NCBI GenBank assembly: GCA_022678445.1
Contig: JALBWU010000002.1
Span: forward strand, 1 to 64,000
DNA from: Candidatus Aramenus sp. CH1
GTDB lineage: Archaea; Thermoproteota; Thermoprotei_A; Sulfolobales; Sulfolobaceae
DNA length: 64,000 bases
Reading direction: 5' to 3'
This document shows, piece by piece, positions 8,449 through 64,000 of this stretch. Below the pieces are notes generated by a model. It was not told the origin of the DNA. It did not search any database and saw only the letters and a program-made list of their open reading frames with translations. Numbering within the stretch: position 1 is the stretch's first letter; each line of letters opens with the position of its first letter. The position numbers were made by a program, and so were the translations under genes.

Positions 8449-9639
8449 ATGGCAGAAGTTTACATAGTATCAGCCGTTAGGACGCCCATAGGAAAGTTAG
8501 GCGGCGTATTTAAAGACGTACCGCCTGTGGATCTAGGATCAGCTGCCATAAAGGTTGCTATGCAAAAGGTAAACTTAGACCCAAAGGTAGTCGACATAGT
8601 GATCATGGGAAACATTTTAAGGGCTGGACATGGTCAGGACTTAGCTAGGCAGGCGGCTTGCAAAGCAGGTATACCATACGAAATAGATGGGTACTCGGTC
8701 GACATGGTATGCTCATCTGGAATGATGAGCGTAGTAAACGCCTCACAGATGATAAAGAGCAATGATGCAGACGTGGTAGTCGCTGGAGGTATGGAAAGCA
8801 TGAGCCAGGCTGCCCTGGCCCTACCATCGAACGTTAGGTGGGGAGTAAAGTTCCTTATGGACAAAAAACTGGAGTTTATAGATACAATGCTCATTGACGG
8901 GTTGACCGATCCCTTTAACATGTTTGCCATGGGGAGGGAAGCTGACATGGTTGCTAAAGAGCATGACATCAGCAGAAAGGAGTTAGACGAGGTAGCCTTC
9001 GAGAGTCACAGAAGGGCCACTGAAGCGACTAACAAGGGATACTTCTTAAGCGAGATTACCCCAGTTGAGGTTAACGGTAGTCTAGTTACAAAGGACGAGG
9101 GAATTAGGGCTGACACCTCCATTGAGAAGCTGTCTAAGCTGAAGCCTGCGTTCTCGGAGGGAGGTTTCCACACCGCGGGTAATTCCTCCCAGATATCGGA
9201 CGGCGCTTCTGCCCTTATTTTGATGAGCGAAAAGGCGGTAAAGGAGTACGGCGTGGAGCCCATAGCGAAGGTAATTGGTTACTCTTGGGTAGGGATAGAG
9301 AGCTGGCGCTTTACTGAGGCTCCAATCTTTGCAGTGAGGAAGCTCCTGAAGAAGCTCGACATGGAGATCTCAGACTTTGACTACTTCGAAAACAACGAGG
9401 CCTTTGCGGTGAATAATGTCCTAGCACATAGGTATCTGGGCATACCCTATGACAAGCTGAACGTGTTTGGAGGGGCAATTGCTTTAGGCCATCCAATAGG
9501 CGCCAGCGGTGCCAGAATTATAACTACCTTGATAAACGTGCTGTCCAAGATGGGCGGAAGGAGGGGTATAGCCAGCATTTGTCACGGCACTGGAGGCTCT
9601 ACAGCCATTGCCATAGAGCTACTCAAGCCCCTAAAGTAG
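8449..9639 (+). CDS. Acetyl-CoA C-acetyltransferase (thiolase)
   Basis: 396 residues, full-length thiolase that condenses or cleaves acetyl-CoA / acetoacetyl-CoA. The nucleophilic Cys is in DMVCSSGM (residue 88), the NEAF motif is near 316, the GHPIGASG motif near 348 and the second catalytic Cys in CHGTGG near the C-terminus. In Sulfolobales this activity ends the 3-hydroxypropionate/4-hydroxybutyrate carbon-fixation cycle, but paralogues exist and the one here cannot be assigned to that cycle from sequence alone. Confidence 0.95.
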   Translation: MAEVYIVSAVRTPIGKLGGVFKDVPPVDLGSAAIKVAMQKVNLDPKVVDIVIMGNILRAGHGQDLARQAACKAGIPYEIDGYSVDMVCSSGMMSVVNASQMIKSNDADVVVAGGMESMSQAALALPSNVRWGVKFLMDKKLEFIDTMLIDGLTDPFNMFAMGREADMVAKEHDISRKELDEVAFESHRRATEATNKGYFLSEITPVEVNGSLVTKDEGIRADTSIEKLSKLKPAFSEGGFHTAGNSSQISDGASALILMSEKAVKEYGVEPIAKVIGYSWVGIESWRFTEAPIFAVRKLLKKLDMEISDFDYFENNEAFAVNNVLAHRYLGIPYDKLNVFGGAIALGHPIGASGARIITTLINVLSKMGGRRGIASICHGTGGSTAIAIELLKPLK

Positions 9640-17667: not shown

Positions 17668-19131
17668 ATGGACGCGAAAGAAGTGTTGGAAAAGATTTTA
17701 AGGGAGTACAGAAGAGCGTGGAGCATAGCGTACGCTAGATCCCTACTTGCGTGGGACCTAGAGACTTACATGCCTCAGGAAGGGGTGAGGGCCAGGGGCG
17801 AGGCGTTGGCCAACCTCTCTACCTTGTATAGGGAGAAGGTTATGGCCATCGAGAGGGACGTTGAGGGACTGAAGGACGAGGACCTTGACGATTTTGGGCG
17901 GGGAGTTAAGAGAGTTCTAGGCAGGGAAATTAAGTACTTTAGGGCCGTGCCTCCAGAAATAGACGAGGAACTGAACAGGACGACGAGCGAAGCTGAAGTG
18001 GCGTGGAGGAAGGCTAAAAAGGAGGGTAAATTCTCAGAGTTTAGGCCTTATCTCGAGAAGATCGTGGATTTAGAGAGAAAGGTTGCAGAGAGTCTTGGAT
18101 ATGAGGGCCACCCTTACAACGCGTTGCTCGACCTCTACGAGGAGGGCCTAACGGTAAACGACGTCGACAGCGTTTTTTCTTATCTTCTGCCTGAGTTAAA
18201 ACACGTCTTAGAGAAGGTCAGATCTGAGGGCAGGTTCCCAAGTAAGCACGAACTCGAGGACGTGGAGTACAAGGTAGAGGACATGGAGAAGGTAAACCGC
18301 GAGGTTATAGGAATGTTGGAAATGCCAATGACCAAGTTCAGGCTTGACGTGTCGCCACATCCTTTCACAATAAGGATCTCGGCAGACGACGTTAGGATAA
18401 CAACAAGGTACGAGGGCAAGGACTTTAGGTCCACTATGTTTTCCGTTATCCATGAGAGCGGACACGCCATGTACGAACTCATGATCGACAAGTCCCTGGA
18501 CGTTACGCCTTTAGGCCAGGGCGTCTCCTCTGGTATCCACGAGTCCCAGTCAAGGTTTTGGGAGAACATAATAGGAAGGAGTAGGGAGTTCGTCCACCTC
18601 GTTTACCCAATACTGAAGAGGCACCTAAAGTTCTTAACGCAGGACGAGGAGGAGCTCTACAAGTACTTCAACGTGGTGAGGCCCAGCCTGATAAGGGTGG
18701 ATGCAGACGAGCTCACGTACAACTTCCACATAGCGGTAAGGTATGAGGTAGAGAAGAAGCTCATTGCGGGGGAAATGTCAACCTCAGACGTCCCGTCAAT
18801 GTGGGACGACTTCATGGACAAGTACCTGGGCGTAAGGCCTAACAACGACTCTGAGGGAGCCCTGCAGGACATTCACTGGTCTCAGGGATCGTTTGGTTAC
18901 TTCCCCACCTACACCATCGGAAACGTGGTAGCCGGCATCTTGTACCACCACTTTCCAGTAAAGGAAAAGGTGAGAGATGGGAAGCTCAACGAGGTCAAAG
19001 AGTACTTAAGGGAAAAGGTGTGCAAGTACGGGGCCACCTATCCTCCCAAGGAGCTTCTGAGGAAGTCGTTCAGAGAAGGGTATAACCCAAAGTACCTAGT
19101 GGACCACTTAAGGGAGAAATACCTAGCGTGA
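17668..19131 (+). CDS. Thermostable carboxypeptidase Taq (M32 metallocarboxypeptidase)
   Basis: 487 residues, close to the M32 norm of about 500. A cytoplasmic zinc carboxypeptidase that removes C-terminal residues from peptides. The metal motif HESGH lies in SVIHESGHAMYE (about residue 262-273), and the third ligand Glu is in GIHESQSRFWEN about 25 residues later. The start ATG is preceded by an A/T-rich stretch with AAGTTAAGTTTA. Its stop overlaps a small minus-strand gene by 9 nt. Confidence 0.95.
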   Translation: MDAKEVLEKILREYRRAWSIAYARSLLAWDLETYMPQEGVRARGEALANLSTLYREKVMAIERDVEGLKDEDLDDFGRGVKRVLGREIKYFRAVPPEIDEELNRTTSEAEVAWRKAKKEGKFSEFRPYLEKIVDLERKVAESLGYEGHPYNALLDLYEEGLTVNDVDSVFSYLLPELKHVLEKVRSEGRFPSKHELEDVEYKVEDMEKVNREVIGMLEMPMTKFRLDVSPHPFTIRISADDVRITTRYEGKDFRSTMFSVIHESGHAMYELMIDKSLDVTPLGQGVSSGIHESQSRFWENIIGRSREFVHLVYPILKRHLKFLTQDEEELYKYFNVVRPSLIRVDADELTYNFHIAVRYEVEKKLIAGEMSTSDVPSMWDDFMDKYLGVRPNNDSEGALQDIHWSQGSFGYFPTYTIGNVVAGILYHHFPVKEKVRDGKLNEVKEYLREKVCKYGATYPPKELLRKSFREGYNPKYLVDHLREKYLA

Positions 19132-19230
19132 CCATTTTTCCCTTCTGTCCTCATCAACGATTGCATAGCTTTTACATATCTCGAATCCTTGGACTTTTTC
19201 GCACTCTTCAAAAGCCCCGTCTATGTACAT
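19123..19230 (-). CDS. Small Cys-containing protein A (35 aa)
   Basis: 35 residues starting MYIDGAFEECEKVQGFE and ending ...EKWSR. It shares the pattern G-[AL]-F-E-x-C-(4)-G-x-E-x-C-(3)-A-x-V-x-[DE]-x-R with the small protein encoded 111 nt upstream on the same strand, with one extra residue in this copy. A TATA-like TTTTAAACCT (minus strand, 19251-19260) is centred 25 bp before the ATG, as expected for a leaderless gene. No known family. It overlaps the carboxypeptidase stop by 9 nt. The two cysteines, 9 residues apart, could bind a metal or be redox active; that is inference. Confidence 0.5.
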   Translation of the reverse strand: MYIDGAFEECEKVQGFEICKSYAIVDEDRREKWSR

Positions 19231-19250
19231 GGTAATATTTTTGTTCAGTA

Positions 19251-19260
19251 AGGTTTAAAA
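19251..19260 (-). promoter_or_regulatory. TATA box of small gene A
   Basis: Minus strand TTTTAAACCT, 25 bp before the ATG that ends at 19230. Confidence 0.4.
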
Positions 19261-19341
19261 GAGTTATTACACATTAAATTGTTTAAACCTATAAAAACTT
19301 TGACCTGAAGAATAAACTAAAAATAAAAGATATAAAAGTTT

Positions 19342-19503
19342 CTAAAAAGGTTTAAACTCCAGTGGGCTAGATAGGGGGCTCTCTCTGTCTAGTACGCACG
19401 CTATTAGGCTACACTTCTCTTTGCCATCCTCTATACTACACTCGAATAGGCCGTAGTTGGTGTGGCATTTGTCAGTTCTCATCACAGTGTAGAATTTGTT
19501 CAT
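19342..19503 (-). CDS. Small Cys-containing protein B (53 aa)
   Basis: 53 residues starting MNKFYTVMRTDKCHTNYGLF. Four cysteines: C13, C22, C31 and C36. The middle (GLFECSIEDGKEKCSLIACV) aligns with small protein A, so the two are paralogues. A strong TATA element (minus strand TTTATATATTA) is centred 26 bp before the ATG, so the mRNA should be leaderless. Codon use resembles the neighbouring genes. No family recognised. The Cys pattern is compatible with a small zinc or redox protein. Confidence 0.6.
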   Translation of the reverse strand: MNKFYTVMRTDKCHTNYGLFECSIEDGKEKCSLIACVLDRESPLSSPLEFKPF

Positions 19504-19522
19504 AGGTCTACAATTATGTAGA

Positions 19523-19534
19523 CTAATATATAAA
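19523..19534 (-). promoter_or_regulatory. TATA box of small gene B
   Basis: Minus strand AGTTTATATATT. It is about 26 bp upstream of the ATG at 19503-19501 and one of the best TATA matches in the window. Confidence 0.6.
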
Positions 19535-19631
19535 CTTTTTTATTGAACAAGTTTTAGTGAAAACTAAATAATATAAAACTATTCAAAAGACAATTATCCA
19601 TTGACGACAAAAAAGGAATTAAACGTAGATA

Positions 19632-19640
19632 AGTATAAAG
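19632..19640 (+). promoter_or_regulatory. TATA box deciding start of 19663 gene
   Basis: AGTATAAAG centred 27 bp before the ATG at 19663. An in-frame ATG at 19645 would lie upstream of the predicted transcription start. Confidence 0.5.
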
Positions 19641-19662
19641 CAAAGTGTTTCTCATATATAGT

Positions 19663-20058
19663 ATGGGCATCTTTAAGAAAGAGAGAACTTACTCACCAGT
19701 AAAAGACCTAAACGCAGTCGTGAGTCAGTTCGTGCAATACCTACAGAGCCAAGGCTTTAAAGTGCAACAGAAGATTGAGGGCGACAAGGCAGTGATACAG
19801 GCACAGAAGGGAGGCATATTGAGGGACTTAATAGCCGCAGACAGGGCGTTGACGTTCACTTTCGAGAACAACCCAGATGGACTAAAAATCACAACCGGTG
19901 TAGGCAAGTGGATTCAGAACATAGCCGTTACCGCGATTGAGGTGTTGTTAATAAGCGAGCTGTTTCTAGCAGTAGACGTACCGGAAATGCTTTGGACTTC
20001 TCACGTCGAGTCTAACATTCTAAAAGAGCTAGACAAGATCGTAAGTTCTACATCATGA
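19663..20058 (+). CDS. Hypothetical protein upstream of ParA-like ATPase
   Basis: 131 residues from the start MGIFKKERTYSPV, chosen because the TATA box is 27 bp upstream. A longer reading from 19645 is possible. The first 70 residues look like a small alpha/beta domain, with basic residues in QSQGFKVQQKIEGDKAVIQAQKGG. A hydrophobic stretch IAVTAIEVLLISELFLAVDV (about 89-108) could insert in or touch the membrane. Function unknown. The next gene, a MinD/ParA ATPase, begins 39 nt later and may be co-transcribed. Confidence 0.65.
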   Translation: MGIFKKERTYSPVKDLNAVVSQFVQYLQSQGFKVQQKIEGDKAVIQAQKGGILRDLIAADRALTFTFENNPDGLKITTGVGKWIQNIAVTAIEVLLISELFLAVDVPEMLWTSHVESNILKELDKIVSSTS

Positions 20059-62743: not shown

Positions 62744-63901
62744 TCAAGTAAATATCTTTTTTGATATTATCATTTTCATAACGTTCATAGCTCCCTCAGC
62801 TCCAACTAGGTAGGACGCTATTCCCCTGTAGGCGATCTCGACTAGGGCGTCCTTTGTGTAGCTGTAAGCTCCCATCCACATCATGACAGACTTTATCACG
62901 TCAAACGCCGTCTGTGGACCAACCAGCTTGGCCATTGCGGAGTAGGCCGGTATCTGATCTCGGAACTTTTCCTCGTTATCCAACATCCACGCTGCCTTGT
63001 AGGTCAATAGCTTCGCCATCTCTAGCCTTGTGTAAAGCTCTGATGCCTCGAAGGCTATCGCCTGGTGGTCCTTCAGCTTCTTCCCAAAGGCTTCCCTCTC
63101 TTTCGCGTAATTTAGTCCCATTTCGAGTATTACTTCAGCACTACCTATACAAGCTGCTGAAACCAAAACTCTAGCGTGGTTAAAACCATCCATAGCGTAA
63201 TAGAATCCCTTGTTTTCCTCTCCCACTAAGTTCTTAACTGGGACTTTGATACCATGATATCTCATGATACCCGTTGAGATCCCCATCCTGCCCGAGTTGG
63301 ATATTAGGGACGTTTCAACTCCCTCTTGGTCTGTTGGCACGTATATCATTGAGATCCCTCTATGCCCTTCCGGCGAAGTCCTAACTAGCGTTAGGTGGCC
63401 TCCTCCCCACTTCTTTGCCTCGCCCACCCCACTAATGTAAGACTTCTCCCCTTCGATTACGTAGTGCTTGCCCTCTTTCCTTGCTGACGTCTTGAGGTTG
63501 GCCACGTCGCTCCCGCCCGAAGGCTCAGTAGAGGCTATCCCCAGGAACCAGTCGCCGGAGACCACCTTTGGCAAGACCTCTTCCCTTACCCCCTTTCCGT
63601 ATTTGTCCAAGACGTAACCCCAGGAGGCCTCCAAAAGGAACATCACCGCCGTGGCCATGCTGAAGTCTGCCCTCGCTATTTCCTCCGCTGCTATCGCAGT
63701 TAACGTGAAAGAGGCCTTTTGCCCACCTACGTCCTCTGAGACGGGCATAGCCCACAGTCCAAGTTTGGCCATATCCTTTACTAGATCCCTTGGTATCCCT
63801 TCCTCGTCTATCTTCCTGACAATTGGTCTAACCCTCTTAGAGAGGAAATCCCTTAGCTCCTCCCTGAAGAGGGCCTCTTCCTCCGAGAAGGAAAAGTCCA
63901 T
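62744..63901 (-). CDS. Acyl-CoA dehydrogenase
   Basis: 385 residues, full length. FAD-dependent alpha,beta-dehydrogenation of acyl-CoA with electrons going to ETF. Typical segments are TEPSGGSDVANLKTSA, EKSYISGVG, the helix INYAKEREAFGKKLKDHQAIAFEASELYTRLEMA (read MGLNYAKEREAFGK...), and the C-terminal AYRGIASYLVGAEGAM where the catalytic Glu usually sits (EGA here instead of EGT). A further gene ends 22 nt upstream on the same strand. Confidence 0.92.
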   Translation of the reverse strand: MDFSFSEEEALFREELRDFLSKRVRPIVRKIDEEGIPRDLVKDMAKLGLWAMPVSEDVGGQKASFTLTAIAAEEIARADFSMATAVMFLLEASWGYVLDKYGKGVREEVLPKVVSGDWFLGIASTEPSGGSDVANLKTSARKEGKHYVIEGEKSYISGVGEAKKWGGGHLTLVRTSPEGHRGISMIYVPTDQEGVETSLISNSGRMGISTGIMRYHGIKVPVKNLVGEENKGFYYAMDGFNHARVLVSAACIGSAEVILEMGLNYAKEREAFGKKLKDHQAIAFEASELYTRLEMAKLLTYKAAWMLDNEEKFRDQIPAYSAMAKLVGPQTAFDVIKSVMMWMGAYSYTKDALVEIAYRGIASYLVGAEGAMNVMKMIISKKIFT

Positions 63902-63922
63902 AAAGAGTATTGCATTTTGAGG

Positions 63923-64000
63923 TTAAATTTCCGGGTTTCTTAAGCTCACGCACTCCGAGATCGTGTATACCTTCGACCTAGTGTCTTGAAGGCAGATCCT
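63923..64000 (-). CDS. C-terminal end of an unidentified gene
   Basis: The minus strand is open from the window edge to a TAA, giving 25 residues (RICLQDTRSKVYTISECVSL...). It ends 22 nt before the acyl-CoA dehydrogenase start, as expected for an operon neighbour. Too short to assign. Confidence 0.35.
   Translation of the reverse strand, partial: RICLQDTRSKVYTISECVSLRNPEI

Follow-up and report, generated by a model that had tools for sequence, protein, structure and literature searches.

A leaderless gene for a four-cysteine mini-protein family of the Sulfolobaceae, with an extra copy between merA and a merB-like gene

Introduction

Proteins of less than about 60 residues are easily overlooked in annotation, and the locus described here raises the question of whether two very short frames on the minus strand of an archaeal contig are genes, whether they are related to each other, and what their products may do. 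The locus lies within a stretch of 64,000 nt (the window) on contig C2 of the Candidatus Aramenus sp. CH1 assembly (1,930,407 bases in 24 contigs), a metagenome-assembled genome whose source is reported to be the Chichon volcano (PMC11320969). An initial annotation of the window had proposed two tandem leaderless genes for paralogous, cysteine-containing proteins of an undescribed family, with a possible role in metal or thiol binding.

Two minus-strand frames preceded by TATA-like boxes

Both frames are present as claimed, a 53-aa frame (ORF53) at positions 19342-19503, stop codon included, and a 35-aa frame (ORF35) at positions 19123-19230, and in each case a TATA-like box is located at leaderless distance before the ATG. 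For ORF53 this box is TTTATATA (19527-19534, minus strand, -31 to -24 from the ATG), which has the same position in the sister species, and for ORF35 it is TTTTAAA (19254-19260, minus strand, -30 to -24 from the ATG), which is identical in the sister species. Immediately 3′ of the ORF53 stop codon is a T-rich stretch (19311-19341, minus strand) which, judging from its sequence, may function as a transcription terminator. A search of the region 19000-19700 for RNA elements gave no Rfam match at E up to 0.1.

ORF53 belongs to a conserved family of the Sulfolobaceae

With ORF53 as a single query protein against 60 related genomes, relatives were found in most of the Sulfolobaceae, with weak or partial matches excluded (that of G052, the second matches of G007 and G015, and the weak ones of G014 and G019). 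A profile of 27 rows (A1), which excludes L008 and L009 as their protein is identical to that of L007, was used to search 197 genomes of the order and detected the family in 26 of the 31 Sulfolobaceae genomes at E < 1e-18, the exceptions being G006, G008, G011, G016 and G026. Matches scoring less than the 71-bit group do not enter these counts, among them a partial match of 28 bits with a stop in G010, and neither does a second match in G021, located towards the opposite end of its contig. The best E value among the non-Sulfolobaceae genomes of the order was 0.011, and outside the Sulfolobaceae in a phylum-wide draw of 398 genomes it was 0.008, both of which were regarded as noise. A weak match to the family profile at 63840-63977 of the window overlaps a long ORF reading like an acyl-CoA dehydrogenase, and was taken as chance given this overlap.

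A pattern scan of 84,980 species (genome_contigs collection), which is non-exhaustive and missed many carriers known from the protein search, returned Sulfolobaceae records, one Bacteroidetes record that looks like a chance match, and one short contig binned as Candidatus Rehaiarchaeum. This 3.2-kb contig has a Sulfolobaceae-like copy (L043:661-804) near a DoxD-like ORF (read by eye), and mis-binning is more likely here than transfer. Viral contigs gave four pattern matches, none of which was confirmed as an ORF53 relative, and no relative was found in plasmids or phages, and hence a viral or plasmid origin of ORF53 was rejected.

Searches with the family in Pfam, NCBIfam, PHROGs, PADLOC and PDB sequences gave chance-level matches or none, in agreement with the proposal of an undescribed family as far as ORF53 is concerned. 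We recognised no paper on the family in a literature search that covered part of the Sulfolobus mer literature, so that absence from print is not established.

The ORF53 family evolves under purifying selection, i.e. it is coding. Within genera, dN/dS was 0-0.08 in several pairs, with 6 to 11 synonymous and 0 nonsynonymous changes separating L007, L008 and L009 from each other, and values of 0.02-0.08 in several further pairs. Between the two Aramenus species dN/dS of ORF53 was 0.15, and the full set of 36 usable pairs, which includes many distant ones, had a median of 0.32. ORF53 is thus a genuine gene, leaderless and belonging to a family of small proteins, and the argument that such a frame is unlikely to arise by chance is upheld for ORF53 by its homologs, the low dN/dS and the conserved TATA position.

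The latter was assessed with a script requiring a six-base match at -29 to -31 from the ATG, which covered 26 of the 29 family loci (L008, L030 and L031 excluded) and detected a TATA box at 18 of these 26. Four more loci (L021, L023, L025 and L026) display TATATA near -30 when inspected by eye, and no clear TATA box was found, by script or by eye, at three loci of genus g3 and for the copy in a mercury cassette described below. Because of this conserved position before the ATG, the native gene looks like a leaderless and mostly stand-alone transcription unit.

Paralogy of ORF35 and ORF53 is not supported

A motif shared by ORF35 and ORF53 had been read in the initial annotation as a sign of paralogy. 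The shared motif requires a one-residue gap, and pairwise shuffles gave P values of 0.04-0.08 for a motif that was chosen after the fact. ORF35 scores 0.7 bits on the ORF53-family profile, a score equalled or exceeded by 740 of the 4700 scored shuffles (5000 made), and a local alignment of the DNA of both gene regions was matched in quality by 66/500 shuffles. ORF35 also has only two Cys residues, versus four in the ORF53 family. As the profile, the protein shuffles and the DNA alignment were all unsupportive, ORF35 was rejected as a tandem paralog of ORF53, and with a profile score this low its assignment to the same undescribed family is not supported either.

As a gene in its own right ORF35 is unproven. 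In the sister species the frame is uninterrupted and free of indels (with the ATG changed to GTG), and its dN/dS between the two Aramenus species is 0.26, calculated from 14 substitutions, which is in line with conservation, whereas nothing significant was found outside the genus Aramenus in the related genomes searched, so that the frame is represented by two Aramenus genomes. Simulation of substitutions with the region's own spectrum gave P values of 0.03-0.05, with about half of the simulated sequences free of stops, and with coding evidence this weak the argument against chance does not extend to ORF35. The 3′ end of the frame overlaps a convergent 487-aa ORF by 9 bases. At best, ORF35 is a candidate gene of its own that is restricted to the genus, and it is no part of the explanation proposed below for ORF53.

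Four cysteines in a predicted three-stranded sheet

The family proteins are 38-58 aa in length, and at 28 of the 29 loci they contain exactly four Cys residues and no extra ones, in the spacing C-x8-C-x(4,5,8)-C-x4-C, within a rough consensus of K-Y-[YF]-T-[IV]-[RK]-x-T-x2-C-x-[TS]-x-Y-G-[LI]-[YF]-E-C-x(4,5,8)-C-x-L-[IVL]-A-C. The family is defined by this four-Cys spacing together with YG[LI][YF]EC and C-x-L-x-A-C, all of which are present in ORF53 itself. The tail beyond the fourth Cys is variable in length and sequence, and CxxC is absent from all 29 sequences. The member from G021 (L027, G021:C1, match 9318-9419) has both Cys 3 and Cys 4 replaced by Tyr, with the frame still open; its dN/dS is above that of its relatives, and the loss may represent either natural decay or a functional change.

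AlphaFold2, run with an eight-row alignment, predicted beta strands at residues 3-9, 17-25 and 28-36 of ORF53, with block pLDDT values of 92, 96, 93 and 91 over residues 1-40 and 52-53 for the tail, and the shorter copy from the mercury cassette was modelled with three strands as in ORF53. The predicted strand register would place Cys 22 and Cys 31 opposite each other at the neck of the β2-β3 hairpin, and Cys 13 (β1-β2 loop) and Cys 36 (end of β3) at the other end and on the opposite face. According to the model, the cysteines should form two separate dithiol or disulfide pairs rather than one four-Cys site. Foldseek gave no match at E < 1 (best E 1.1), and fold comparison with VIA was uninformative (best Z 3.5, rmsd 6.1 over 47 residues).

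Native neighbourhoods differ between genera

The neighbours of the native genes vary by genus, and there is no constant partner, which counts against the carrier function considered below; in Aramenus, none of the genes closest to ORF53 was recognised as a metal or sulfur gene. In genus g5, the gene is located 26-75 bases upstream of a gene for a protein of 976-979 aa in 5 of the 6 genomes with a native copy, with one of these large proteins passing the Fdh-alpha model TIGR01591 and an FdhD gene present further down. Another genus (G015 and G007) has the gene between molybdenum hydroxylase-like and XdhC-like genes (G015 proteins scanned), and the neighbours in g10 include DUF1641, DsrE, type III SQR-like and TusA genes (G025 proteins scanned). 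These formate dehydrogenase, molybdenum and sulfur contexts were selected post hoc. A general role with formate dehydrogenase or molybdenum enzymes was rejected, since an Fdh-like protein is present in 27/31 Sulfolobaceae genomes, mostly distant from the ORF53-family gene, and is kept in G026, from which the ORF53 family is absent.

An extra copy between merA and a merB-like gene

Three genomes, G018 (Metallosphaera yellowstonensis) and G028 and G030 (both of g5), contain an extra copy of the ORF53 family in a mercury cassette. The gene order is merA, tiny gene, merB-like gene in all three islands, with 5 bases between the merA stop codon and the ATG of the copy and a 4-base overlap of the copy with the start of the merB-like gene, and such spacing is consistent with an operon. 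The copy lacks a TATA box of its own, and its open frame and all four Cys residues are retained in each of the three islands. For ORF53, this location provides outside support for the earlier guess of a metal- or thiol-binding protein.

The upstream gene in G018 passes the NCBIfam MerA model TIGR02053 (539.7 bits, cutoff 454.45). Pfam did not detect an N-terminal metal-binding domain on the cassette MerA, and no TRASH-type MerH was seen on reading through the listed neighbours of the cassette merA. The downstream gene (Metallosphaera yellowstonensis L104:10109-10534 and L045:6120-6542, also in G030 and G028) encodes a 141-aa MerB-like protein that passes Pfam PF03243 (42.1 bits, gathering cutoff 27), falls far under the NCBIfam MerB cutoffs (33.5 versus 193), and gave nothing against PDB sequences at E up to 0.01. 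Six plasmid-record matches were obtained with this protein, five of them annotated as merB, and its residues Cys31, Asp34 and Cys91, which we take to be the MerB catalytic residues, align with two annotated plasmid MerB proteins. Relatives of the MerB-like protein are present in 3 of the 31 Sulfolobaceae genomes, which are exactly those with the extra copy. A 2021 survey states that no MerB homolog was identified in genomes of Crenarchaeota (PMC8261052), and the presence of a MerB-like gene in Sulfolobaceae bears on this published absence.

The main blocks of the island share 95-99.8% DNA identity from one genus to another, and the island is rearranged. The mer copies are placed in one clade with g5 and g9 despite one host being Metallosphaera, in a tree with mostly weak inner branches. 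Since the island is this similar across genera and the copy groups with another genus, the cassette appears to have moved horizontally; the copy was probably derived from a g5-like chromosomal gene, with subsequent transfer of the cassette between genera. The three mer islands are one event.

In the G028 island (L103, G028:C1 96300-116200), a transposase-like ORF separates the two halves of a split merA, behind which both the gene for the tiny Cys protein and the merB-like gene are intact. A frame of 42 aa with a C2H2-like motif and a His/Cys-rich tail (L109) is located on the opposite strand, 105 bases upstream of the island merA, and its sequence makes a metal sensor or chaperone possible. 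In Aramenus itself, ordinary-looking ArsR-like, MerH-like and MerA-like genes were read just beyond the window (L133, C2, about 65121-66437), with a peroxiredoxin-like ORF, also by reading, convergent at the end of the locus.

Relation to known mercury-trafficking proteins

One close parallel is MerH, a TRASH-domain protein of about 50-70 aa from the merHA operon of Sulfolobales, for which a metal-trafficking or chaperone role has been described (PMC4500099, PMC4187130). Both are tiny Cys-bearing proteins encoded next to merA, by genes that overlap or touch, but MerH-like frames are located upstream of merA and contain CxxC and CCxxC, whereas the mer copy of the ORF53 family is downstream and lacks CxxC. 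No sequence similarity between MerH and ORF53 was noticed on inspection. Membership of the MerH/TRASH group was rejected on the absence of CxxC from 29 sequences, the location of the copy downstream of merA and the lack of a Pfam TRASH match.

Schelert reportedly described in 2006 that MerI of Sulfolobus solfataricus is encoded downstream of merA, and the mer copy likewise follows merA immediately, within a mer operon of Sulfolobales. In several g5 genomes the gene after the chromosomal merA specifies a 122-aa product, presumably MerI, which has a C-terminal CP[VI]C...CGCG and is unlike ORF53 by eye, and the equation of the ORF53 family with MerI was tentatively set aside because of this dissimilar product in that position.

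HMA domains have a beta-alpha-beta ferredoxin-like fold with GMTCxxC. Those of the NmerA/MerP type would share with the mer copy the proposed task of passing Hg(II) to MerA by a Cys pair, but the ORF53 model is an all-beta mini-sheet without CxxC, and membership was rejected as none of 27 family members had a Pfam HMA match at E up to 1. Likewise, a zinc ribbon or rubredoxin-like protein with two CxxC knuckles was rejected, given the spacing C-x8-C-x(4,5,8)-C-x4-C in 28/28 four-Cys sequences. ORF53 resembles other small disulfide-bonded or zinc proteins of Sulfolobales in its very small size, basic N-terminus and even number of Cys residues, but differs in that no convincing profile match (four libraries) or fold match connects it to them.

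A tentative function and its rivals

Because the predicted geometry of the Cys pairs and the location in the mer cassette fit such a role, we tentatively propose that ORF53 may be a small dithiol protein of the cytosol, which transports or buffers sulfur or soft metals and was drawn into mercury detoxification. The analysis shows the gene, its family, the selection on it, the promoter position, the predicted strands and the place in the operon; the Cys pairing and its redox state, the cargo and the partners are inferred. With its three-stranded beta-sheet, its variable tail and its four Cys residues, the mini-protein would use two separate dithiol/disulfide sites to bind thiol-seeking cargo, namely Hg(II) and possibly also other soft metals or the sulfur of persulfides, and would hand this cargo on to enzymes. 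The stand-alone leaderless gene may thus serve the general thiol and metal traffic of the cell, while the mer copy would take Hg(II) freed by the MerB-like lyase and deliver it to MerA, filling the slot that a MerH-like gene has beside merA in chromosomal operons. The Cys spacing without CxxC, unlike that of typical metallochaperones, the open frame of the G021 member despite its lost Cys 3 and Cys 4, the single event behind all three mer islands and the low NCBIfam score of the MerB-like protein all count against this proposal.

Two rivals, a structural disulfide protein and a passenger copy, come close to the carrier in likelihood. Proteins with disulfides are reported to be widespread among thermophilic archaea, Sulfolobus species being no exception (PMC3177088), and ORF53 could be a mini-protein stabilised by two permanent structural disulfides, which binds protein or nucleic acid as an adaptor or small regulator and is unrelated to metals. 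The even number of Cys residues with none free (28/29 loci), the two cross-linked pairs predicted by the model and the abundance of basic and aromatic side chains in the first strand of ORF53 would all suit such a protein, yet it leaves the extra copy between merA and merB unexplained, and by the inferred pairing the loss of Cys 3 and Cys 4 in G021 would result in two unpaired cysteines in a frame that was nevertheless kept; on balance we consider it somewhat unlikely. The mer copy may also be a passenger, captured by chance in an island rich in insertion sequences and with a native function unrelated to mercury or thiols, a reading favoured by the rearranged island with one broken merA, and by the absence of native copies near mer genes. 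The perfect operon spacing on both sides (5 bases and a 4-base overlap), the loss of the TATA box, and the preservation of the frame and four cysteines in all three islands count against chance capture, which we regard as rather unlikely.

We are most doubtful about a small zinc- or iron-binding regulator, in which all four cysteines would coordinate one metal and which would act on transcription or translation of stress genes, including mer. Four invariant cysteines, a leaderless stand-alone gene and a place inside mer that could be regulatory are compatible with this, but Cys 31 and Cys 36 are five residues apart on one strand and hence predicted to face opposite sides, which makes a single site in a monomer unlikely, and there is neither a CxxC in the family nor a zinc-ribbon match in Pfam or by fold comparison.

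Starting from the tentatively favoured dithiol carrier, a wider scheme can be drawn, which we regard as rather unlikely in its entirety: dithiol mini-proteins would act throughout the Sulfolobaceae as a general shuttle for soft metals or sulfur, and one copy, captured between merA and the gene for a MerB-like lyase, would take the part of MerH or an NmerA domain in passing on to MerA the Hg(II) received from MerB, thus forming a compact archaeal cassette for mercury and organomercury. The capture by mer offers a concrete handle on the function of the ORF53 family, and bears on how Hg(II) is delivered to archaeal MerA enzymes without a metal-binding domain. With ORF53 being kept in most genera of a model archaeal family, its product probably does something basic.
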